Assembly: GCA_026417415.1 (NCBI GenBank)
Contig: JAOADG010000034.1
Location: 1 to 23,379 of the forward strand
Reading direction: 5' to 3'
Length of the DNA stretch: 23,379 nucleotides
DNA from: a bacterium
GTDB taxonomy: Bacteria; Electryoneota; JAOADG01
A program made the position numbers and the translations under genes. The notes under the pieces were generated by a model. That model saw nothing but the letters and a program-made list of their open reading frames with translations. It was not told the DNA's origin and ran no database searches. Within the stretch, counting starts at the first letter, position 1. The number at the start of each line of letters is the position of its first letter. Shown here piece after piece: positions 12,244 through 22,869 of the stretch.

Positions 12244-12882
12244 ATGCAACAAGAAACTCCGAAACAAATCCGCTTTGTTGGGAAACTTGATCCAGATTTT
12301 GTCCAAAAAATGTGGCGCGGCTGGAAAAAAGTAAAATTTGAAGAAGAAATGGATCCCCAATTCGCAGAAAAGGTCGCATCTTACCCGGGTTGCAACACGT
12401 TATTTGATTGCATCCAATGCGGGACCTGTAGCGGCATTTGTCCAATGGGTTCCTTTATGGAGTATGCGCCGCGTAAAATAGTTGGGATGATTCGTGCGGG
12501 TTTCAAAGGTGAAGTGCTAACCAGTTATACCACATGGCTATGTGCCTCTTGTTATGCTTGTACTGTAGAATGTCCTAAAAATATAAAGATTACTGATATA
12601 ATGTATGCTCTTAAACAACTTGCAATCAAAGAGCATATGCACCCACGACGTTTACCTATCCCAGTGTTGGCACGTCAATTTTTCGAAATTGTGAAAAAAT
12701 TTGGACGCAACAATGAAGGTAAAGTTGTGATCAATATGTATTTTCGCACCAATCCACTTTTGCCCTTACGGAATTTGATCATGGGAATCAAATTGTATTT
12801 ACGTGGTCGAATCGCATTTACTCAAGATAAAATTCAGAATATTCCTCAATTAACGAAAATTCTAAACACCGTAAAGATGTAG
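12244..12882 (+). CDS. hdrC: Heterodisulfide reductase-like subunit C (iron-sulfur)
   Basis: A 212-residue ferredoxin-type subunit with two [4Fe-4S] motifs: CIQCGTCSGIC (Cys56, 59, 62, 66) followed by PMGS, and CASCYACTVEC (Cys100, 103, 106, 110) followed by PKN. An extra Cys50 precedes the first motif. In HdrABC complexes this subunit carries electrons from HdrA to the catalytic HdrB. The start ATG at 12244 has AAAGGAA upstream. It is the first gene of the hydrogenase operon, and hdrB follows after 16 bp with its own AAGGAG. The C-terminal ~90 residues are basic and helical, as in other HdrC proteins. Confidence 0.92.
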   Translation: MQQETPKQIRFVGKLDPDFVQKMWRGWKKVKFEEEMDPQFAEKVASYPGCNTLFDCIQCGTCSGICPMGSFMEYAPRKIVGMIRAGFKGEVLTSYTTWLCASCYACTVECPKNIKITDIMYALKQLAIKEHMHPRRLPIPVLARQFFEIVKKFGRNNEGKVVINMYFRTNPLLPLRNLIMGIKLYLRGRIAFTQDKIQNIPQLTKILNTVKM

Positions 12883-12898: not shown

Positions 12899-13804
12899 AT
12901 GAGTTACCTGTATTATCCGGGTTGTTGCTGCTCAATGAAAGCCAGTGGGAAAGCGTATGAAGAATCTCTGATGGCAGTTTTGAAAAAGTTGGGAGTCACC
13001 TTAGAAGAACTTAAAGATTGGAATTGTTGTGGTGCTACGATGTATATGGCAATTGATCAAATGCAAGCATTTGGTATGGCATCACGAAATTTAGCATTAG
13101 CCGAACAACAATGTCCTAACAAAACACCAGAATTGATGGCTCCTTGCAGTGCTTGTTATGTCGTAATGAATAAAACCAAACACTTTATAGAAGATTATAA
13201 AGAACAAGTCGGTACACCTATTCGAAATGCATTAAAAGAAGCAGGATTTACTTATACTGGGAAAACCAAAGTTCGTCATCCTTTGGATATTTTAGTGAAT
13301 GATATTGGATTAGATAAAATACGCCAACATGTAAAAAAACCGCTAAAAGGTTTGAAAGTTGCTAGTTATTATGGATGCCTTTTAGTACGTCCGTATTCAG
13401 AATTTGATGATGTTCATTATCCTCGGAGCATGGACAACTTGATGGAAGCCCTTGGTGCCAGCAGTTTAGAATGGCCTCTTAAAACCCGCTGTTGTGGTGG
13501 TTCCATGACCGGCACCGTAGAAGACGCAGGTCTGCGATTAAGCTATATTATCTTAAATGAGGCGGAACGACGAGGTGCGGATGTCGTGGTTACAGCGTGT
13601 CCATTCTGCCAAACCAATTTAGAATGCTTCCAACAACGAATACAACGTAAATCCAAAGGTGGTATTTCCGATTTGCCCATTCTGTTTTTTACACAATTGG
13701 TTGGTTATGCAATGGGCATTCCTGAAAGAGAATTGGGCTTTCACCGTTTGTTTGTTCCTTTTCATTTTTCACCGAAACAAGTGGTGACGGAGGGAGTAGA
13801 ATGA
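12899..13804 (+). CDS. hdrB: Heterodisulfide reductase-like subunit B (two CCG domains)
   Basis: The catalytic subunit that reduces a disulfide-type acceptor on non-cubane [4Fe-4S] clusters. Both cysteine-rich CCG domains are complete: Cys9 (YYPGC), Cys43-Cys44 (NCCG) and Cys83/Cys86 (CSAC) in the first; Cys160 (YYGC), Cys198-Cys199 (CCGG) and Cys234/Cys237 (CPFC) in the second. The 301-residue length is normal. The start ATG has AAGGAG 7 bases upstream, and the end overlaps hdrA by 4 bp (ATGA). In methanogens the substrate is CoM-S-S-CoB. No coenzyme M/B genes are visible here, so the acceptor is unknown. Confidence 0.93.
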   Translation: MSYLYYPGCCCSMKASGKAYEESLMAVLKKLGVTLEELKDWNCCGATMYMAIDQMQAFGMASRNLALAEQQCPNKTPELMAPCSACYVVMNKTKHFIEDYKEQVGTPIRNALKEAGFTYTGKTKVRHPLDILVNDIGLDKIRQHVKKPLKGLKVASYYGCLLVRPYSEFDDVHYPRSMDNLMEALGASSLEWPLKTRCCGGSMTGTVEDAGLRLSYIILNEAERRGADVVVTACPFCQTNLECFQQRIQRKSKGGISDLPILFFTQLVGYAMGIPERELGFHRLFVPFHFSPKQVVTEGVE

Positions 13805-16041
13805 AAGATCAGCATGTCCACCATTTTGAACACACGGATGTAAAAGTTGGTGTTTATGTTTGCCATTGTGGGATCAACATCGCTTCCAAAGTCAATGTAC
13901 ATGAAGTTGTAGAATTTGCAAAAAACTTACCTAATGTGACGGTTGCGACAGAATACAAATTCATGTGCAGCGATGCTGGGCAAGATATCATCGTTCAAGA
14001 TATCCGTAGTGGTAAAGTGAATCGTGTTATTGTTGCCAGTTGTTCACCGTTGATGCATGAAATCACTTTCCGCAATGCTACCCAACATGGTGGGATTAAT
14101 CCATATTTCTTCCAAATGGCAAACATTCGTGAACACGTAAGTTGGGTTACAGCTGAAAAAGAAGATGCCACCGTTAAAGCCAAAGCATTGGTAGCGGCTG
14201 CGGTTCACCGTGTATCAAAACATACTTCTTTAGAGAAGAAGTATTTTCCAGTCAATCCAAATGTATTGGTGGTTGGAGGCGGAATTGCCGGTATTCAAGC
14301 AGCATTAACCATAGCCAATGCTGGAAAAAAAGTTTACTTGGTTGAACGGGAACCGACCATCGGTGGCCATATGGCGAAATTTGATAAGACATTCCCAACC
14401 TTAGATTGTGCTGCATGTATCTTAACTCCCAAAATGTCACAAGTCCGTTCCCATCCGAACATTACCCTTTGGACCTACGCTGAGGTAGAAAACGTGAGTG
14501 GTTATGTAGGGAATTTTACTGTACAAGTAAAACATAAAAAACGATACATCAATGCAGACACTTGTATCGGTTGTAAAGCATGTGTAGATGCTTGTATCGG
14601 ACCGGAGAATATTCCAGATGAATTTAACGAAGGTTTAAGTTATAGAAAACCGGTGTATATGCCATTTCCACAAGCAACACCATCTGTAGTAATTATTGAT
14701 GAAAACAGCTGTTATCATTTTACAAAGGGTGGTTGTCCTCCAGATTTTTCTTCTAAAAATGGGCATTTAAGTCCACAACTTCAATCTCTACTTAGGCGAG
14801 CAAATGAGTGTTTTGAATTAAGGGATTTTCAAGAAACATTGAAGTTGACGAAAGAAATTTTAAAATCTTCTCCTGAACATCAAGAAACACTTTTTCTCCA
14901 TGCACAAACTTTATATCAATTAGGGATGATCAATGAAGCAACGGAAGTAATGCGGAATGTAATGGTCAAAGAACGCTGTGTCGCCGCTTGTCCAAAAGGA
15001 TCTGTAGATTTGTATCAAACGGAAGCAATTAGTGAAATTCAAGTCGGTGCGATTATTATTGCAACTGGATTTAAGACCTTCCAAGGGGAAAGAACCACAC
15101 AGTATGGATACAAAAGGTATCCCAATGTGTTTACCTCGTTAGAAATTGAACGATTGGTGAATGCTTCCGGCCCCACGGGAGGTGAAATTGTTTTACGCGA
15201 TGGAAAAACTAAACCGAAATCTGTGGCCATTCTTCATTGTGTTGGTAGCCGCGACTTGCATTCAAATCGTTACTGTTCACGTGTCTGTTGTATGTATTCA
15301 CTAAAACTTGCACATTTAATTAAAGAACGAACGGGAGCAGAGGTTTACAATTTCTATATTGATATGCGTACGCCCGGAAAAGGGTATGAAGAATTTTATG
15401 AAAAATTGTGTCACGAAAATGTTCACTTTATCCGCGGACGTGCGGCTGAGGTCACAGATTGGGTGTTGTCAAAAGCAGAACTCGGGAAATTGGTGGTTCG
15501 TGCTGAAGATACACTGTTGGGAATGGTTCGTCGCGTCCCCGTAGATATGGTGGTTTTATCTGTGGGATTAGAACCTCAAACGGATGCTGAAGAAGTACGA
15601 CGGAAATTCAACATTAGTTGCAGTAAAGAAGGGTGGTTCCTTGAACGTCACCCCAAGTTAGCCCCAGTAAATACTTTTACCGATGGGATTTTTCTTGCCG
15701 GCGCTTGCCAAGGACCGAAAGACATTCCTGATACAGTAGCCCAAGCTGGAGCTGCTGCGGCAGAGGCATTGGCTCTGATTGATATCGGTTATGTAGAAAT
15801 GGAACCCAATACTGCTTTTATTACAGAAGAAAATTGCAGTGGTTGCCGCATTTGCGTGGCGCTGTGTCCCTATACTGCTATTACTACGGATCCTGTAAAA
15901 TTGATTTCTGTGGTGAACCCTGCACTTTGTAAAGGTTGCGGGACCTGCGTTGCAGCATGTCCAAGTGGTGCCGCTCAACAAAATCTATTTACTGATGAAC
16001 AAATCTTTGAAGAAATTGAAGGAGTTTTGGAATATGTCTAA
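13801..16041 (+). CDS. hdrA: Heterodisulfide reductase-like subunit A, with TPR-like insertion in an iron-sulfur motif
   Basis: The flavin subunit expected to perform electron bifurcation. The N-terminal domain has VCHCG (Cys21, Cys23). The FAD Rossmann motif VVGGGIAGIQAA starts at about residue 156, with TLDCAACILTPKM near 200-212. A ferredoxin motif is CIGCKACVDAC (Cys255, 258, 261, 265). The next cluster motif starts with Cys304 and FTKGGC (Cys312), but instead of closing at once it is interrupted by about 78 residues before CVAACP (Cys393, Cys397). The insert has two helix-turn-helix repeats of TPR type. The rest is standard: CVGSRD, RVCCMYSLK, GKGYEEFYE, FLAGACQGPKDIPDT, and two C-terminal ferredoxin motifs (Cys679-689, Cys710-720). 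The length of 746 exceeds the usual ~650-670 by about the insert. Overlaps both neighbours. Confidence 0.93.
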   Translation: MKDQHVHHFEHTDVKVGVYVCHCGINIASKVNVHEVVEFAKNLPNVTVATEYKFMCSDAGQDIIVQDIRSGKVNRVIVASCSPLMHEITFRNATQHGGINPYFFQMANIREHVSWVTAEKEDATVKAKALVAAAVHRVSKHTSLEKKYFPVNPNVLVVGGGIAGIQAALTIANAGKKVYLVEREPTIGGHMAKFDKTFPTLDCAACILTPKMSQVRSHPNITLWTYAEVENVSGYVGNFTVQVKHKKRYINADTCIGCKACVDACIGPENIPDEFNEGLSYRKPVYMPFPQATPSVVIIDENSCYHFTKGGCPPDFSSKNGHLSPQLQSLLRRANECFELRDFQETLKLTKEILKSSPEHQETLFLHAQTLYQLGMINEATEVMRNVMVKERCVAACPKGSVDLYQTEAISEIQVGAIIIATGFKTFQGERTTQYGYKRYPNVFTSLEIERLVNASGPTGGEIVLRDGKTKPKSVAILHCVGSRDLHSNRYCSRVCCMYSLKLAHLIKERTGAEVYNFYIDMRTPGKGYEEFYEKLCHENVHFIRGRAAEVTDWVLSKAELGKLVVRAEDTLLGMVRRVPVDMVVLSVGLEPQTDAEEVRRKFNISCSKEGWFLERHPKLAPVNTFTDGIFLAGACQGPKDIPDTVAQAGAAAAEALALIDIGYVEMEPNTAFITEENCSGCRICVALCPYTAITTDPVKLISVVNPALCKGCGTCVAACPSGAAQQNLFTDEQIFEEIEGVLEYV
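14740..14976 (+). other. TPR-like insertion inside HdrA (about residues 314-392)
   Basis: The insert begins right after FTKGGC and ends before ERCVAACP. It reads as two 34-residue helical hairpins. The first contains LLRRANECFELRDFQETLKL and ILKSSPEHQE. The second contains LHAQTLYQLGMINEATEVM. The spacing of Leu, Ala, Gly/Asp, Ala and Pro matches the TPR consensus. It stays in frame, and codon use is like the flanking gene. TPRs usually bind protein partners, so the inferred role is docking of another subunit or regulator near this cluster. Confidence 0.75.
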
Positions 16042-16534
16042 CTCCCAATCTAAACCATCTGATTTTACCCCAAGGATTGTTGCCTTTTTTTGTAATTGGT
16101 GTACTTATACTGCATCGGATTTAGCGGGCACAGCCCGAATGACGTATGCGCCAAATGCACGTATCATTCGCGTGATGTGCTCGGGACGAATTGATCCTCA
16201 ATTCGTGATGGCAGCTTATCGCAATGGTGCAGACGGTGTCCTCATTGGCGGATGCCATCCGGGTGATTGTCACTATCAAGAGGGCAACTATAAATGTTTG
16301 CGTAGAATTACTTTGCTGAAAAGGATGCTCAGTCAACTTGGGATTGAATCGGAACGACTTCGTTTAGAATGGATTTCAGCCAGCGAAGGGGATCGGGTTC
16401 AGCGTGTAGTCAATGAAATGACAATGCAAATCAAAGCACTTGGTCCGTTAAAATTGAATATTCCACAACCTGAGCATTCCCATGCGGTCCCTACGCAATC
16501 CCATACCCCTAAAAGTAAGGAGGTGGTTTCATGA
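16034..16534 (+). CDS. mvhD: Hydrogenase iron-sulfur subunit D
   Basis: A 166-residue [2Fe-2S] protein that passes electrons from the hydrogenase MvhAG to HdrA. Family features are FFCNWCTYTASDLAG, RVMCSGRIDPQFV and the Cys/His-rich IGGCHPGDCHYQEGN, followed by a helical tail. I use the ATG at 16034, which overlaps the hdrA stop by 8 bp and has GGAG 9 bases upstream. An in-frame extension to 15950 would lie deep inside hdrA and has no family match. The last ~20 residues are a polar His/Ser/Pro tail not seen in the core family. The next gene overlaps by 4 bp. Confidence 0.9.
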   Translation: MSNSQSKPSDFTPRIVAFFCNWCTYTASDLAGTARMTYAPNARIIRVMCSGRIDPQFVMAAYRNGADGVLIGGCHPGDCHYQEGNYKCLRRITLLKRMLSQLGIESERLRLEWISASEGDRVQRVVNEMTMQIKALGPLKLNIPQPEHSHAVPTQSHTPKSKEVVS

Positions 16535-17508
16535 GTAAGCCAAAAATTGGATTTTATTGGTGTGCATCCTGCGGTGGTTGTGAAGAAGCCATTGTTGATT
16601 TAAATGAAGCCGTGTTGGATGTAGTCGCTGCTGTAGATATTGTGTTTTGGCCTTGTGCAATGGATTTTAAGAAGAGCGACGTGGAAGCGATGGCGGATAA
16701 AGAAATTACTGCTATCTTTATTAACGGGGCGATTCGTTCCAGTGAACAATTTGAGATGGCTGAATTGCTAAGAAAAAAATCGCAATTCGTAATTTCATTT
16801 GGGAGTTGTTCCCATGAAGGGGGTATTCCGGGATTAGCCAACTTGTATAAAAAAGAGGATTTGTTATCAACAGTTTATAGCACAGCTTTTTCAACCATTA
16901 ACCCAAACTATACACTTCCACAAACTCAAACCAAAGTCCCTGAAGGCATTGCAACACTCCCAGAACTTTGGGAGACAGTGAAATCTTTAGATCAAGTGAT
17001 TGACGTGGATTACTTTTTACCGGGATGTCCACCACCCGTGAAATTAGTTGTTGATGCTGTGACTGCACTATTGAGTGGCAATTTACCTCCCAAAGGTGCT
17101 GTGTTAGCTCCGGATAAAGCATTGTGTGATGATTGTACACGTAAAGCCACAAAACCGGAGAAACTTCAACATAAACGGTTTTACCGTCCTTCAGAAATCC
17201 TTATTGATCCGGAAAAATGTTTATTGGCACAAGGGTTATTGTGTTTGGGACCGGTTACACGAATGGGCTGTGATTGGGCTTGTATCAATGGGAATATGCC
17301 TTGTACAGGTTGCATGGGACCAACTTCAAGGGTAAGAGATTACGGTGCAAAAGCACTCTCAGCGATGGCAAGCGTCATTGACTTAAATGATGAAGAAGAA
17401 ATTCAAAAAAGTATGGATAGTATTGTAGATCCAGTAGGTACATTCTATCGTTATAGTTTAGCTACTTCACAATTGCATAGTGCAATCCACACCAATGGGG
17501 GCAAGTAA
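16531..17508 (+). CDS. mvhG: [NiFe] hydrogenase small subunit, MvhG type (group 3c)
   Basis: The electron-transferring small subunit of the hydrogenase. The proximal cluster ligands are visible: CASCGGCEE (Cys14 and Cys17), FGSCSHEGG (Cys93) and PGCPPP (Cys166). The C-terminal part has the other cluster cysteines, including CDDCTRK (Cys199, Cys202), CINGNMPCTGCMGP and an intervening GLLCLGP. It has no twin-arginine signal peptide, so the enzyme is cytoplasmic, as expected for Mvh. The 325-residue length is normal. The start ATG overlaps the mvhD stop (ATGA) and has AAGGAGG upstream. mvhA follows with a one-base gap. Confidence 0.92.
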   Translation: MSKPKIGFYWCASCGGCEEAIVDLNEAVLDVVAAVDIVFWPCAMDFKKSDVEAMADKEITAIFINGAIRSSEQFEMAELLRKKSQFVISFGSCSHEGGIPGLANLYKKEDLLSTVYSTAFSTINPNYTLPQTQTKVPEGIATLPELWETVKSLDQVIDVDYFLPGCPPPVKLVVDAVTALLSGNLPPKGAVLAPDKALCDDCTRKATKPEKLQHKRFYRPSEILIDPEKCLLAQGLLCLGPVTRMGCDWACINGNMPCTGCMGPTSRVRDYGAKALSAMASVIDLNDEEEIQKSMDSIVDPVGTFYRYSLATSQLHSAIHTNGGK

Positions 17509-17509
17509 T

Positions 17510-18973
17510 ATGGGCAAGACGGTGACTATAGATCCCATCACACGACTGGAAGGTCATGGTAAAATTGAGATTTTTCTTGATGATTCTGGAAATGTAGAGC
17601 GTGCATACATGCAAGTTCCGGAATTACGAGGGTTTGAACAGTTTGCTGTGGGTCGGCCAGCAGAAGATATGCCACAAATTACATCCCGAATTTGTGGAGT
17701 TTGTCCTACTGCTCATCATATGGCAGCGACCAAATGTGTAGATCACTTGTATCGTGTTGATCCACCTAGCACTGCAAAAAAAATTCGTGAACTGATCTAT
17801 TCCACTTTTTTTGTAGAAGATCATGCTTTGCATTTCTATTTTCTTGGTGGACCTGATTTTGTAGTGGGACCCACTGCGAGTAAAGCCGAAAGGAATATCT
17901 TGGGGGTGATTGGAAAAGTTGGTGTTGAAGTCGGAAAGCATGTTATTGCAGTACGTAAACAGTTGCGAGAACTCATTTCTTTAAGCGGTGGCAAGGTCGT
18001 TCACCCCGTATTTGGATTGCCCGGTGGAGTGGCTAAACCTTTGACGAAAGAAGACCAAAAGAAGTTTCAAGATGCTGCGAAAGTTGCAATTGAATTTGGT
18101 TTATTTACCTTACAAGTTTTTCGTGATATTGTGTTAAAAAATTCCGCTTATGTTGATGCAATCTTATCTGATGGGTTTACCCATAAAACTTATTACATGG
18201 GTATGGTAGATGCCAATAAAAAAGTAAACTTTTATGATGGTTACCTGCGTGTAGTGGATCCCAATGGGAACGAATTTGCTTACTTCCCTAATCAAGATTA
18301 TTTAGACCATATTGCTGAACACGTAGAACCTTGGAGTTATATGAAGTTCACCTATCTGAAAAAGAATGGTTGGACAGGTTTTACAGAAGGCAATCTATCA
18401 GGAGTTTATGCAGTTGCCCCACTGGCTCGTTTAAATGCTTCGTTAGGAATGGCGACACCAAAAGCGCAAGAGGCACATGACGAGATGTATTCAACCCTTA
18501 AAGGTAAACCGGTACATCACACACTTGCAAACCATTGGGCAAGGTTAATTGAATTGCTTTATGCTGCAGAGCGTATGGATGAATTGGCAAATGATGATGA
18601 AATCGTTGGTTCCAATTATCGCACCATCCCTACCAATATTCCCAAAGAAGGTGTTGGTGTTGTGGAAGCACCGCGGGGCACATTGATTCACCATTACAAA
18701 TCCGATGAACGTGGAATTTTAACTGGCGCTAGTTTGATTGTTGCTACCCAAAACAATGCAGCCAGAATTGCAATGTCCGTGGATAAAGCGGCAAAAACTT
18801 TAATAAAAAATGGTGTTGTTAATGATGGACTTCTTAATCAAGTAGAAATGGCGTTTCGAGCTTATGACCCTTGCTACGGTTGTGCAACCCACACCTTAAA
18901 TGGTGAAATTCCCATCGTGATCACCATTCGTAACCAGAAAGGAGAAATTGTTCAACAGATTAACCGAACCTAA
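17510..18973 (+). CDS. mvhA: [NiFe] hydrogenase large subunit, MvhA type (group 3c)
   Basis: The catalytic subunit carrying the NiFe(CN)2CO centre, splitting or making H2. Both nickel-binding motifs are intact: RICGVCPTAHH (Cys62, Cys65) and DPCYGCATH (Cys455, Cys458, His461). About 26 residues follow the last His, the C-terminal peptide expected to be removed on maturation; a protease gene follows directly. The N-terminus TIDPITRLEGHGKIEIF is typical. I use the ATG at 17510, one base after the mvhG stop. An in-frame extension from 17480 would overlap mvhG and precede the conserved start. All nickel ligands are present, so the enzyme should be active. Confidence 0.94.
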   Translation: MGKTVTIDPITRLEGHGKIEIFLDDSGNVERAYMQVPELRGFEQFAVGRPAEDMPQITSRICGVCPTAHHMAATKCVDHLYRVDPPSTAKKIRELIYSTFFVEDHALHFYFLGGPDFVVGPTASKAERNILGVIGKVGVEVGKHVIAVRKQLRELISLSGGKVVHPVFGLPGGVAKPLTKEDQKKFQDAAKVAIEFGLFTLQVFRDIVLKNSAYVDAILSDGFTHKTYYMGMVDANKKVNFYDGYLRVVDPNGNEFAYFPNQDYLDHIAEHVEPWSYMKFTYLKKNGWTGFTEGNLSGVYAVAPLARLNASLGMATPKAQEAHDEMYSTLKGKPVHHTLANHWARLIELLYAAERMDELANDDEIVGSNYRTIPTNIPKEGVGVVEAPRGTLIHHYKSDERGILTGASLIVATQNNAARIAMSVDKAAKTLIKNGVVNDGLLNQVEMAFRAYDPCYGCATHTLNGEIPIVITIRNQKGEIVQQINRT

Positions 18974-19478
18974 AATTGATCACCTCCGACGAACGAAACC
19001 TTTTTTAATTCTTGGTTTAGGAAACGAACTACTTGCTGATGATGCTGCCGGTATTTTGGTAGTAAAAGAATTGGCGAGTAGTTTCTTTTTTCAGCCATTT
19101 GAACCTTTTTTTGAAACTGTTCTTTGCAGCGAGTCCGGAGTGACATTATTGGATTACTTCAGCGGATATCAGAAAGCAATTGTGGTGGATTCGATTCATT
19201 CACCCAATTATCCTGTTGGGGAAAGTATTGAAATCCCTATTGACAATTTACAAGTTACCTATGCACCTTCACCCCATTACAGTGGCCTTACTGAGTTACA
19301 ACAACTTGCAAAAGAAATGGACATTCCATTTCCCAACGAAATACGAATTGTCGCCATTCCAGTTGAAGACCCTTACACCATTGGAAAGCCACTATCCGAA
19401 TCCACATACTTAGGGATTCAATCTGCTAAAAACAAATGTTTAGCCATTGCAGAAAGTTGGATAAAATCCTATTGTTAA
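18948..19478 (+). CDS. Hydrogenase maturation protease (HycI/HyaD family)
   Basis: An endopeptidase that cuts the C-terminal tail from the large subunit after nickel insertion. The family opening is clear: ILGLGNELLADDAAGILVV, where the acidic pair contacts nickel, then VVDSIHS and APSPHYSGLTEL. Length (176 residues) is near normal. The start is uncertain. The TTG at 18948 lies inside mvhA (26-bp overlap), with GGAG only 3 bases before it, a short spacing. No ATG or GTG occurs between there and the conserved GLGN motif. The target is almost certainly the MvhA product just upstream. Confidence 0.85.
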   Translation: MFNRLTEPKIDHLRRTKPFLILGLGNELLADDAAGILVVKELASSFFFQPFEPFFETVLCSESGVTLLDYFSGYQKAIVVDSIHSPNYPVGESIEIPIDNLQVTYAPSPHYSGLTELQQLAKEMDIPFPNEIRIVAIPVEDPYTIGKPLSESTYLGIQSAKNKCLAIAESWIKSYC

Positions 19479-19561: not shown

Positions 19562-20752
19562 TTGTTTCAAAGAATACTTATTGCCTTACTACTTATTTTT
19601 CTTGTTTCTGTTTCCTACTCACGCGACTTAGGGTTGATAGCTCGCGATGTTCCTAATGATGCTGGTTTTGCTATTCGCTTAAATTGGCAGCCCATTCCTA
19701 TACCACCGAATATCCACATTCATCGGTTTTATTTAGAGCGAGGGGTACAACCTGAAGGTCCATTTCAAAAAGTGACTGACTTGAAAAGCGATGATACAAG
19801 TTATGTGGATGATGGTAGCAACCGCAATCCAAACTCACTGAAACCGAACACCAACGTTTGGTACCGATTGAAAATTGAATACGCAATGGCATTTCGCCAA
19901 GGCGATTCGTTGCTTGTTGATACTTTAAATCGAGTAATCGTAAGTTCAGAAACAGTCGGACCCGTTCAAGCCAAACCTTCTTGGGTGAACCCAAAAAGAT
20001 TAATCGTCATTTTTCTGATCACAATTTATTTTTTACTGATTCTATTCTTTACCAGACGAGCTAGAAAAGGTTTATCCCTTTTCGTTCGTAAAATTGCTGG
20101 ATTATCTGCATTAGACGAAGCAATTGGTCGAGCTACCGAAATGGGAAAACCCGTTTTATACTGTCCCGGTTCACAAGGGGTAGATAATATCCAAACTATT
20201 GCTTCTATGATCATTTTAACAGAAGTTTCGCGAAGAACTGCAGAATATGATGTTCCGATTATTGTGCCACTAATGTCGGCTTTTGTGGTCCCGGTAGCAG
20301 AAGAAGCTGTACGTTCTGGTGCGCTGAATGCAGGTCGCCCTGATGCATTTCAGCCGGATAACATCCGATTTTTATCTGAAGAGCAATTCGCATATACTGC
20401 CGGTGTAAGTGGGATTATGCTGCGCGAAAGGCCTGCTGCAAATTTGTTTATGGGCGCTTTTTTTGCTGAATCACTCATTTTAAGTGAGGTCGGTTTTTCG
20501 ACAGGCGCTATACAAATTGCAGGTACATCAAATGTACATCAATTGCCGTTTTTTGTTGTTGCTTGTGATTACACTTTAATTGGAGAAGAGTATTTTGCTG
20601 CCAGTAGTTATATTTCAAAGGATCCGGGACTATTGGGAACCCTTAAAGGTACAGATTGGATAAAGATATTCACAATTGCAGTGATTGTGATTGGAGCAAT
20701 TTTAGAAACATTCGGTCTAACTGGATTTACTAAACTTTTTGAGATTCAATAA
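19562..20752 (+). CDS. Uncharacterised membrane protein with signal peptide, Fn3-like domain and conserved C-terminal domain
   Basis: A 396-residue protein, first of a four-gene unit. An N-terminal hydrophobic signal (about residues 4-20, ending VSYSRD) is followed by a beta-rich region to ~110 that resembles a fibronectin type III fold (IRLNWQP early, VWYRLKIEY late). A transmembrane helix at about 148-166 is followed by a basic RRARKG. A conserved-looking domain follows (GLSALDEAIGRATEMGKPVL, then residues to ~370), and a second helix at about 375-392. This domain resembles the uncharacterised DUF6754 type, from memory only. Start is TTG at 19562 with GGGG upstream; other in-frame starts would cut the signal peptide. 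No enzymatic motif is seen. Confidence 0.75.
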   Translation: MFQRILIALLLIFLVSVSYSRDLGLIARDVPNDAGFAIRLNWQPIPIPPNIHIHRFYLERGVQPEGPFQKVTDLKSDDTSYVDDGSNRNPNSLKPNTNVWYRLKIEYAMAFRQGDSLLVDTLNRVIVSSETVGPVQAKPSWVNPKRLIVIFLITIYFLLILFFTRRARKGLSLFVRKIAGLSALDEAIGRATEMGKPVLYCPGSQGVDNIQTIASMIILTEVSRRTAEYDVPIIVPLMSAFVVPVAEEAVRSGALNAGRPDAFQPDNIRFLSEEQFAYTAGVSGIMLRERPAANLFMGAFFAESLILSEVGFSTGAIQIAGTSNVHQLPFFVVACDYTLIGEEYFAASSYISKDPGLLGTLKGTDWIKIFTIAVIVIGAILETFGLTGFTKLFEIQ

Positions 20753-20757
20753 TTTAT

Positions 20758-21384
20758 ATGAAGCGTGAGATCCCACTTGCCATCTTACTGATTACCGGTC
20801 TTTTTATGATCTTTCAGTATTTTGTGCCCCATTATGCCATAAGTGATATTGCCAGTAAAATTCAACAATGGGCGATTATTATTACTTCGGGAGCGGCCCT
20901 ATTGGGTATTGCGAATTTGCTACGGGTATCTTTGGATCAAGCAATCGCTAGAAAACAAGATTGGATGTACAAATGGGTGGTTATCGTTTCATTGGTAGTC
21001 ACGGGAGTAAGTGGGATCGTTGGTGGAATTGAGCCCGGTACCTTTTTTAATGATATGATTTATTTTCATATGTACACACCCATGGCCTCTACGATGTATG
21101 CAACGTTGGCATTTTTTATCGCATCTGCTGCCTTTCGTGCTTTTCGTGTACGTAGTTGGCAAGCATGGCTGTTAGCATGTACCGCTTTATTGGTCATGTT
21201 AGGCAGAATTCCCTTTGGAAAAATGATTTGGGGGGATTTTCCGCAATTTGTGGATTGGATTATGAATGTTCCCAATACTGTGGCGCAACGTGCGATCCTG
21301 ATTGGTGCTGCATTGGGTGCAGTGGCTACTGGTTTGAAAATGATTTTTGGGATTGAACGAAGTTGGTTAGGGGGTGGAGATTAG
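20758..21384 (+). CDS. Uncharacterised six-helix membrane protein
   Basis: A 208-residue integral membrane protein with hydrophobic segments near residues 7-25, 37-57, 71-93, 106-125, 134-152 and 176-200. I do not recognise the family. A conserved-looking polar loop, EPGTFFNDMIYFHMYTPMAS, sits between helices 3 and 4. It starts 5 bp after the preceding gene and its stop shares a base with the GTG start of the next, so it is translationally linked to both neighbours. The likely role is a subunit of a membrane complex with the other three products. Confidence 0.75.
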   Translation: MKREIPLAILLITGLFMIFQYFVPHYAISDIASKIQQWAIIITSGAALLGIANLLRVSLDQAIARKQDWMYKWVVIVSLVVTGVSGIVGGIEPGTFFNDMIYFHMYTPMASTMYATLAFFIASAAFRAFRVRSWQAWLLACTALLVMLGRIPFGKMIWGDFPQFVDWIMNVPNTVAQRAILIGAALGAVATGLKMIFGIERSWLGGGD

Positions 21385-22220
21385 TGAGCTCTGTCTGGAC
21401 GAAAATTAATCATTTGGATAAGCGATGGATCTATCTGTTTGTGCTATTAGCAGTCGCACTTCCTTTAATCCTTCCCATCAATCTCCCACTTTCCCCTTCA
21501 GGTCCCGTAATGAGTTTTTACAAAGCCATTGAATCAATCCCCAAAGGTTCTATCGTTCTTATTAGCAATGATTACGATCCGGGTTCCAAAGCAGAACTCT
21601 ACCCTATGACAGAAGCGGTGCTGTATCATCTTTTCAAAAGAAATTGCCGTGTGGTAATGCTGAGTTTGTTTCCAGCAGGTCCACCAATGTCTGAACGAGC
21701 GGTCGCACGTGTCACGGAAGATTTACCAAACCTCCAGTACGGCACTGATTTTGTGAACTTGGGGTATAAAGATGGACGTGAAGCGGTCTTGGTTGAAATG
21801 GGACGTTCCATCCGTAGTGCATTCCCCAAAGATTATCGTGGGATCCCCTATGATAGCATTGCGTTACTGAAAGAGGTTGAGAATTATAGCAGTTTTGCGT
21901 TGGTGATTTCAATTTCTGTGGGTTATCCGGGAACAAAAGAGTATGTTCAATATGCACAAGGTCGGTTCAATTTGAAATTGTTGGCAGGTGCTGCAGCGGT
22001 TTCAGTTCCAGAATATTCTGCCTACTATAACTCAGGTCAGTTGTCGGGAATGTTGACAGGGATCTCGGGAGCAGCAGAATACGAAGAATTAATTGGCCGC
22101 CGTGCCTTAGCAGCAAAAGCAATTGATGCTCAAGCCATTGGGCATATGGTTATTATTTTGCTTATTGTATTAGGGAATGTGGCATGGTTTGTAACGAAAG
22201 GTAAAAAGAACCATGAGTGA
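21384..22220 (+). CDS. Uncharacterised membrane-anchored alpha/beta protein
   Basis: A 278-residue protein with an N-terminal helix (about residues 15-35) and a C-terminal helix (about 243-265). They enclose a soluble domain with alternating strands and helices (IVLISNDYDPGSKAELYP, then CRVVMLSLFPAGPPMSE, YGTDFVNLGYKDGREAVLVE and FALVISISVGYPGTKEYV). The pattern looks Rossmann-like, but no nucleotide-binding signature is obvious. I place the start at the GTG at 21384, overlapping the previous stop by one base with GGAGA 3-4 bases upstream. An in-frame TTG at 21363 is less well placed. The family is not recognised. Confidence 0.75.
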   Translation: MSSVWTKINHLDKRWIYLFVLLAVALPLILPINLPLSPSGPVMSFYKAIESIPKGSIVLISNDYDPGSKAELYPMTEAVLYHLFKRNCRVVMLSLFPAGPPMSERAVARVTEDLPNLQYGTDFVNLGYKDGREAVLVEMGRSIRSAFPKDYRGIPYDSIALLKEVENYSSFALVISISVGYPGTKEYVQYAQGRFNLKLLAGAAAVSVPEYSAYYNSGQLSGMLTGISGAAEYEELIGRRALAAKAIDAQAIGHMVIILLIVLGNVAWFVTKGKKNHE

Positions 22221-22869
22221 ACTGATTGGACTTTGGATCGCAGCACTTCTAACAGTTTTTATTCTTTCGTTCCTATATAAAGACAATCCATTCTACAAAT
22301 TTGCTGAACACCTGTTCGTGGGGGTGGCTGCTGGTTATGTATTAGCCCTATCTTGGCACAATACCATCAAACCCAATTTGGTTGAACCCCTCTTCTACCA
22401 AGGAGAATGGATTTTAATTGTTCCCATGGCATTCGGTTTACTTCTTTTTACACGATTTATCCCCAAAATGAGTTGGTTATCCCGCTGGTCGTTGGCTGCT
22501 ATTGTGGGGATCTATTCTGGATTGGCAGTCGTTGCGATAGCAGAAGCCGATTTTGTTACACAAATTCGTGCTACTTTGATTCCCATTTGGGATCAAACAA
22601 AATGGACACAATTTTCAAACCAACCTTCAATCGTTCACTTTATCCATCTGTTCACTAATTTTATTACCATCTTTGGACTTCTTACCATCCTCTTTTACTT
22701 CTTCTTTTCAGTAGAGCATAGCGGCACTTGGGGTCTTATCGCTAAAATCGGTACAGGCCTATTAATGGTGGGTTTTGGCGCAGGTTACGGTTATACCGTA
22801 ATGACGCGTATCGCACTTCTCATTGACCGTGTTGTGTTTTTGCTGGGCGATGTGATTGGATTATTGTAA
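22213..22869 (+). CDS. Uncharacterised six-helix membrane protein, last gene of the unit
   Basis: A 218-residue integral membrane protein with hydrophobic segments near residues 3-21, 28-47, 66-82, 89-110, 145-170 and 176-200. The second segment contains KFAEHLFVGVAAGYVLA, and the end has FGAGYGYTVMTRIALLIDR, both unusually rich in small residues for packed helices. I do not recognise the family. It starts with ATG 8 bp inside the previous gene, so it is coupled to it. It closes the four-gene unit; 250 bp separate it from cas9. Confidence 0.75.
   Translation: MSELIGLWIAALLTVFILSFLYKDNPFYKFAEHLFVGVAAGYVLALSWHNTIKPNLVEPLFYQGEWILIVPMAFGLLLFTRFIPKMSWLSRWSLAAIVGIYSGLAVVAIAEADFVTQIRATLIPIWDQTKWTQFSNQPSIVHFIHLFTNFITIFGLLTILFYFFFSVEHSGTWGLIAKIGTGLLMVGFGAGYGYTVMTRIALLIDRVVFLLGDVIGLL

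Follow-up and report, generated by a model that had tools for sequence, protein, structure and literature searches.

The window, by which we mean the whole stretch of 23,379 nucleotides analysed here, carries the gene order hdrCBA-mvhDGA-hycI, a common bacterial arrangement according to a synteny comparison. The genes are as follows:

12244..12882, + strand: hdrC, iron-sulfur subunit of HdrABC (Pfam Fer4_8; NCBIfam HdrC models below cut-off; synteny)
12899..13804, + strand: hdrB, catalytic subunit with CCG domain (Pfam CCG, 3.8e-22; synteny)
13801..16041, + strand: hdrA, flavin-based bifurcating subunit with tetratricopeptide repeat (TPR) insert, 746 aa (NCBIfam HdrA models; PDB 5odc/8rvu relatives, E ~1e-197; fold match 8rvu_A)
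16034..16534, + strand: mvhD (Pfam FlpD, 1.3e-53; start set at the ATG overlapping the end of hdrA)
16531..17508, + strand: mvhG, [NiFe]-hydrogenase small subunit (Pfam Oxidored_q6; NCBIfam VhuG-type)
17480..18973, + strand: mvhA, [NiFe]-hydrogenase large subunit (Pfam NiFeSe_Hases; NCBIfam VhuA-type)
18948..19478, + strand: hydrogenase maturation protease of HycI/HybD type (TIGR00072 over cut-off)

The open reading frame list and translation showed that hdrA is complete. Its product has the N-terminal domain, the FAD/thioredoxin-reductase fold and the inserted and C-terminal ferredoxin domains of HdrA (matches over residues 14-745), and, around the insert, it superposes on a solved HdrA over 634 of the 643 residues of 8RVU chain A (Z 44.2). 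Every score of the NCBIfam HdrA models on this protein was below the curated cut-off; therefore, the protein is called HdrA on the strength of its fold, its motifs and its operon. The window genome (G000) has five genes of the 2-oxoacid:ferredoxin oxidoreductase (POR) type and no RnfC over cut-off, indicating that ferredoxin is likely to be a relevant carrier. The gene product is predicted to be a working HdrA and would assemble into an HdrABC-MvhADG hydrogenase complex that bifurcates (or confurcates) electrons. Directly downstream of the protease gene, the region 19562-22869 encodes a DUF6754 membrane protein (PF20539, 3e-107) and, after it, three smaller proteins that appear hydrophobic by eye and lack family matches over cut-off; this group was not found beside the other hdr-mvh operons compared.

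An earlier note on this DNA had claimed that TPRs interrupt a cysteine motif of this HdrA. The inserted ferredoxin domain is laid out as follows:

14563..14595, + strand: cysteine motif 1 (Cys255, 258, 261, 265), invariant in a 47-sequence alignment
14710..14736, + strand: first half of motif 2, Cys304-x7-Cys312, invariant in the same alignment
14737..14772, + strand: insert linker, residues 313-324, PPDFSSKNGHLS, better conserved than the repeats in the pairwise comparison with G001
14773..14868, + strand: TPR 1, helices 325-339 and 343-356 (AlphaFold2 models; TPR fold matches)
14881..14961, + strand: TPR 2, helices 361-373 and 377-387 (AlphaFold2 models; TPR fold matches)
14977..14991, + strand: second half of motif 2, Cys393-x3-Cys397, invariant in the same alignment

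The four cysteines of motif 2 had been placed correctly: Cys304 and Cys312 (codons at 14710 and 14734) lie within NSCYHFTKGGC, and Cys393 and Cys397 (14977 and 14989) lie within CVAACP. The large gap between Cys312 and Cys393 was confirmed, but its length, previously given as about 78 residues, is exactly 80 (residues 313-392, flanked by the second and third motif cysteines). All eight cysteines of the domain (255, 258, 261, 265, 304, 312, 393 and 397) were invariant among the 47 aligned HdrA sequences, in agreement with the view that every cluster ligand has been kept. Ordinary HdrA proved compact, as expected, with a length of about 650-680 aa (previously 650-670) against 746 here. When the spacing of motif 2 was surveyed in 72 HdrA proteins, 49 displayed C-x7-C-x3-C-x3-C, 12 had 11 to 19 residues separating the first two cysteines (a loop whose length in relatives is anywhere between 2 and 19 residues), seven carried an NfnB-like insert about 420 residues long, and C-x7-C-x80-C-x3-C occurred solely in the window HdrA and its relative in G001. 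The compact motif, a usual but not a defining feature of HdrA, is thus absent in the window protein, and the NfnB-inserted proteins likewise lack it. Under the standard ferredoxin rule, Cys304, Cys312 and Cys393 of motif 2 would ligate one cluster, so that the insert would have a ligand of that same cluster at either end. The [4Fe-4S] cluster around the insert is probably still built.

On its predicted fold, the insert is a two-repeat TPR. When folded alone from its single sequence, it formed four helices (mean pLDDT 83.1), and the same four helices appeared in the full-length AlphaFold2 model, at a pLDDT of only about 58-71. The top structural matches of the lone insert were TPR proteins, among them 2PL2 (0.8 A over 64 columns), MamA and consensus TPRs; the VIA Z against TPR proteins reached 12.5, in the modest range for helical repeats, and the Foldseek E-values were only about 0.01 for this very short chain. 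The helices are predicted to pair in antiparallel fashion as in a TPR, in line with the hairpins suspected in the earlier note. The Pfam search hit only TPR-type and other helical-repeat families, with a divided outcome: the window copy remained below the cut-offs (TPR_19, E 2e-4; ANAPC3, E 3e-5), whereas the G001 counterpart exceeded them (TPR_11, 41.1 bits against 26.8; TPR_19, 34.7 bits against 25). The spacing survey, the G001 profile scores and the predicted fold together bear out a TPR insert within the cysteine motif.

Our sampling comprised 39 genomes of the phylum, of which two belong to the family of the window genome, namely G000 itself and G001, which represents a second genus. The search for the insert in related genomes, as proposed earlier, located it in this one sampled relative (contig C36, 20375-22570), where the HdrA is 72% identical overall to the window HdrA and carries the insert in frame, at the same residue and aligning without any gap. 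The two inserts are reciprocal best matches between both genomes, although the next match of the G001 insert in G000 is only marginally weaker. A profile of the insert with its flanks, searched against 386 relatives and three further phyla, detected it only in G000 and G001, and about 470 other genomes yielded no instance of it. It also had no match among the closest HdrA loci of a large genome collection; the best 80 of 489 relatives were kept, so rarer insert-bearing cases may exist. The insert is therefore confined so far, among the genomes sampled, to one small uncultured bacterial family. As to its source, no sign was found that the insert had recently been copied from a different TPR gene in G000, the window insert matching only that of G001.

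In the HdrA tree, the two TPR-bearing proteins formed one clade (100/98), whose sister was a plain HdrA2 of G001 (99/87). One G001 contig reads hdrC-hdrB-hdrA(TPR)-hdrC2-hdrB2-hdrA2 and breaks inside hdrA2, and another opens at the matching hdrA2 residue and continues as hdrA2-mvhD-mvhG-mvhA; a 9-base near-overlap suggests that the two contigs join. The two adjoining hdrCBA modules of G001 (L174, 6762-13045, and L175, 1-4437), one with and one without the TPR, apparently serve a single mvhDGA set. The window HdrC and HdrB are 69 and 74% identical to those of the first module, against 53 and 54% for the second, and the TPR copy is the sole full HdrA found in G000, where the plain copy is absent. 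The simplest history is that hdrCBA was duplicated, that one copy gained the TPR and that G000 lost the plain copy.

Conservation between the two genera differs from one part of the protein to another. Synonymous changes between the two hdrA genes are saturated. The insert flanks are 77-78% identical and this is the sole full HdrA found in G000, both of which indicate a gene under constraint. The motif and linker (residues 304-330) retained 15 of 27 residues (56%), whereas the TPR part retained only 9 of 62 (15%), most of them at TPR scaffold positions, which makes a single fixed partner less likely. Fold and length are preserved while the surface drifts, a pattern that suits a structural or loosely specific role more than a fixed partner.

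Solved complexes point to the inserted ferredoxin domain as the place where low-potential electrons are expected to leave HdrA (PMC12350162). In Methanospirillum, FmdF binds this domain, and in Methanothermobacter, density for MvhB is attached to it, with HA6 located 9.8 A from an MvhB cluster (PMC12350162). In other lineages, NfnB-like or NuoG-like parts have reshaped this domain. Because in solved complexes this domain is both the anticipated electron exit and the place where acceptors dock, we propose that the TPR module, acquired a single time, in the family ancestor, by one of two hdrCBA copies, would loop out of the domain with a ligand of the same [4Fe-4S] cluster on each side and could provide an added surface for docking, tethering or shielding a low-potential acceptor (ferredoxin or a ferredoxin-dependent enzyme). 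We give this joint reading, a working HdrA with a single TPR gain in the duplicated copy and such a surface, a probability of roughly 45%; what is shown comprises the anatomy, the conserved cysteines, the predicted TPR fold, the single clade and the operon, and what we infer is that the cluster assembles, that the complex forms and that there is a partner and an effect on electron flow. The earlier note suggested that the module could dock a partner such as another oxidoreductase, or regulate bifurcation; its location would suit the docking of an acceptor, but its surface is poorly conserved. Docking in particular is weakened by the low TPR identity with matches mostly at scaffold positions, which looks unlike a conserved partner-binding face. 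Two repeats are also short for a classical TPR groove, the insert has low confidence in the full-length model, and the window contains no obvious extra partner among the adjacent genes.

The main rival explanation is that the insert is a tolerated passenger, a TPR fragment that landed by recombination in a permissive loop between Cys2 and Cys3 after the duplication and that folds by itself, harmless and without a partner. The very fast divergence of the TPR part beside well-kept flanks and the variable length of the neighbouring Cys1-Cys2 loop are as expected for such a passenger; however, the length of exactly 80 residues without a gap, the TPR scaffold residues and the linker have been kept between genera, and G000 retains the TPR copy alone. 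We regard a passenger as rather unlikely, if a serious competitor. Slightly less probable still is a stronger form of our proposal, in which the TPR would be a dedicated adaptor that binds one particular low-potential acceptor beside the exit cluster and passes electrons on to it, as one of several independent swaps (NfnB-like, NuoG-like and TPR) at one adaptor site in HdrA. The TPR might instead serve assembly, making contacts within or between Hdr complexes (in an HdrA homodimer, or between TPR-HdrA and plain HdrA2 in G001) rather than docking an acceptor. HdrABC complexes are dimers (PMC9012536), the TPR and plain modules adjoin in G001, and the operon has no evident foreign partner gene; G000, however, has the TPR copy only, so a mixed dimer is not general, and we consider an assembly role improbable.

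More improbable again is a loss of the low-potential branch, in which the insert spoils the cluster and HdrA no longer bifurcates to ferredoxin. A cluster with two of its ligands set 80 residues further apart could be disturbed, but the four cysteines of motif 2 and all of motif 1 are invariant, proteins with NfnB-type inserts at the same domain likewise retain cysteines, and the HdrA fold is predicted to be intact. The draft state of both assemblies (40 and 310 contigs) would allow for an assembly chimera or sequencing artefact, the concern raised in the earlier note; the gapless, in-frame counterpart at the same residue of a 72% identical HdrA in a second genus makes this very unlikely, and we rejected it. 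The docking, tethering or shielding surface is our preferred reading. Together with the NfnB-like and NuoG-like replacements in other lineages, a TPR in a cluster loop of the exit domain suggests an adaptor role for the inserted ferredoxin domain, which bears on the destination of HdrA's low-potential electron and on the choice of acceptor in bacterial HdrABC-MvhADG complexes.

Insertion into the inserted ferredoxin domain of HdrA is a known class. HdrA9-11 of ANME-1 carries an NfnB-like insert of ~500 residues there (PMC9012536), and the earlier note's remark that it knew of no described HdrA of such layout therefore holds only for the TPR version, for which nothing relevant (HdrA with a TPR or tetratricopeptide insert) was found in the searchable literature. 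The TPR version is the apparent novelty, a small but real variation on a known enzyme. At seven loci of our survey, HdrA of the Bipolaricaulota/Acetothermia type (1136-1178 aa), encoded beside mvhDGA, carries an NfnB/GltD-like insert in this ferredoxin domain, with boundaries placed by alignment alone; NfnB-like inserts, described for ANME-1, apparently are more widespread. In other genomes of the same phylum as the window genome (L118, 185-7809, and L119-L132), a break at the inserted ferredoxin domain divides HdrA between two genes, giving an N-terminal half of ~300-370 aa and a C-terminal half of ~590 aa that begins with a NuoG-like [2Fe-2S]/[4Fe-4S] domain; many of these genomes have nuoE- and nuoF-like genes between the halves, and mvhD-mvhG follow. 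The split protein is possibly an NADH-linked HdrA, and no description of it was found in the literature searched. HdrA halves of three same-phylum genomes (G030:C119, G032:C296 and G033:C146) contain an in-frame TGA, which may encode selenocysteine.

The HdrA of HdrABC-MvhADG from Methanothermococcus thermolithotrophicus (5ODC) and Methanothermobacter marburgensis (8RVU) shares with the window HdrA all domains, the FAD site and the motifs of both the inserted and the C-terminal ferredoxin domain, at 46-49% identity and with almost every residue superposed, but its motif 2, as read from alignments, is a compact C-x2-C-x2-C-x3-C, in contrast to C-x7-C-x80-C-x3-C with a TPR. Plain bacterial HdrA proteins encoded with mvhDGA (in Zixibacteria, Ignavibacteria, Omnitrophota, Armatimonadota and others) are closer (64-73% identity, with the same operon), yet they have 3 residues between Cys2 and Cys3 of motif 2 instead of 80. 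The proteins of ANME-1 and of the Bipolaricaulota/Acetothermia type resemble the window HdrA in bearing a foreign domain within the inserted ferredoxin domain. Theirs, however, is a pyridine-nucleotide oxidoreductase of ~420-500 residues with its own cofactors, whereas the insert of the window HdrA is a small helical repeat; with its 80 residues, its exclusively TPR-type or helical-repeat Pfam hits and its TPR fold matches, this HdrA is not of the NfnB-inserted kind. The TPR domains of TTC0263 (2PL2), MamA (3VTX) and a consensus TPR (2AVP) contain a matching unit of four helices in two repeats (0.8-1.1 A across 61-64 residues), but unlike them, the TPR of HdrA is set within a redox enzyme, between two of its cluster ligands.
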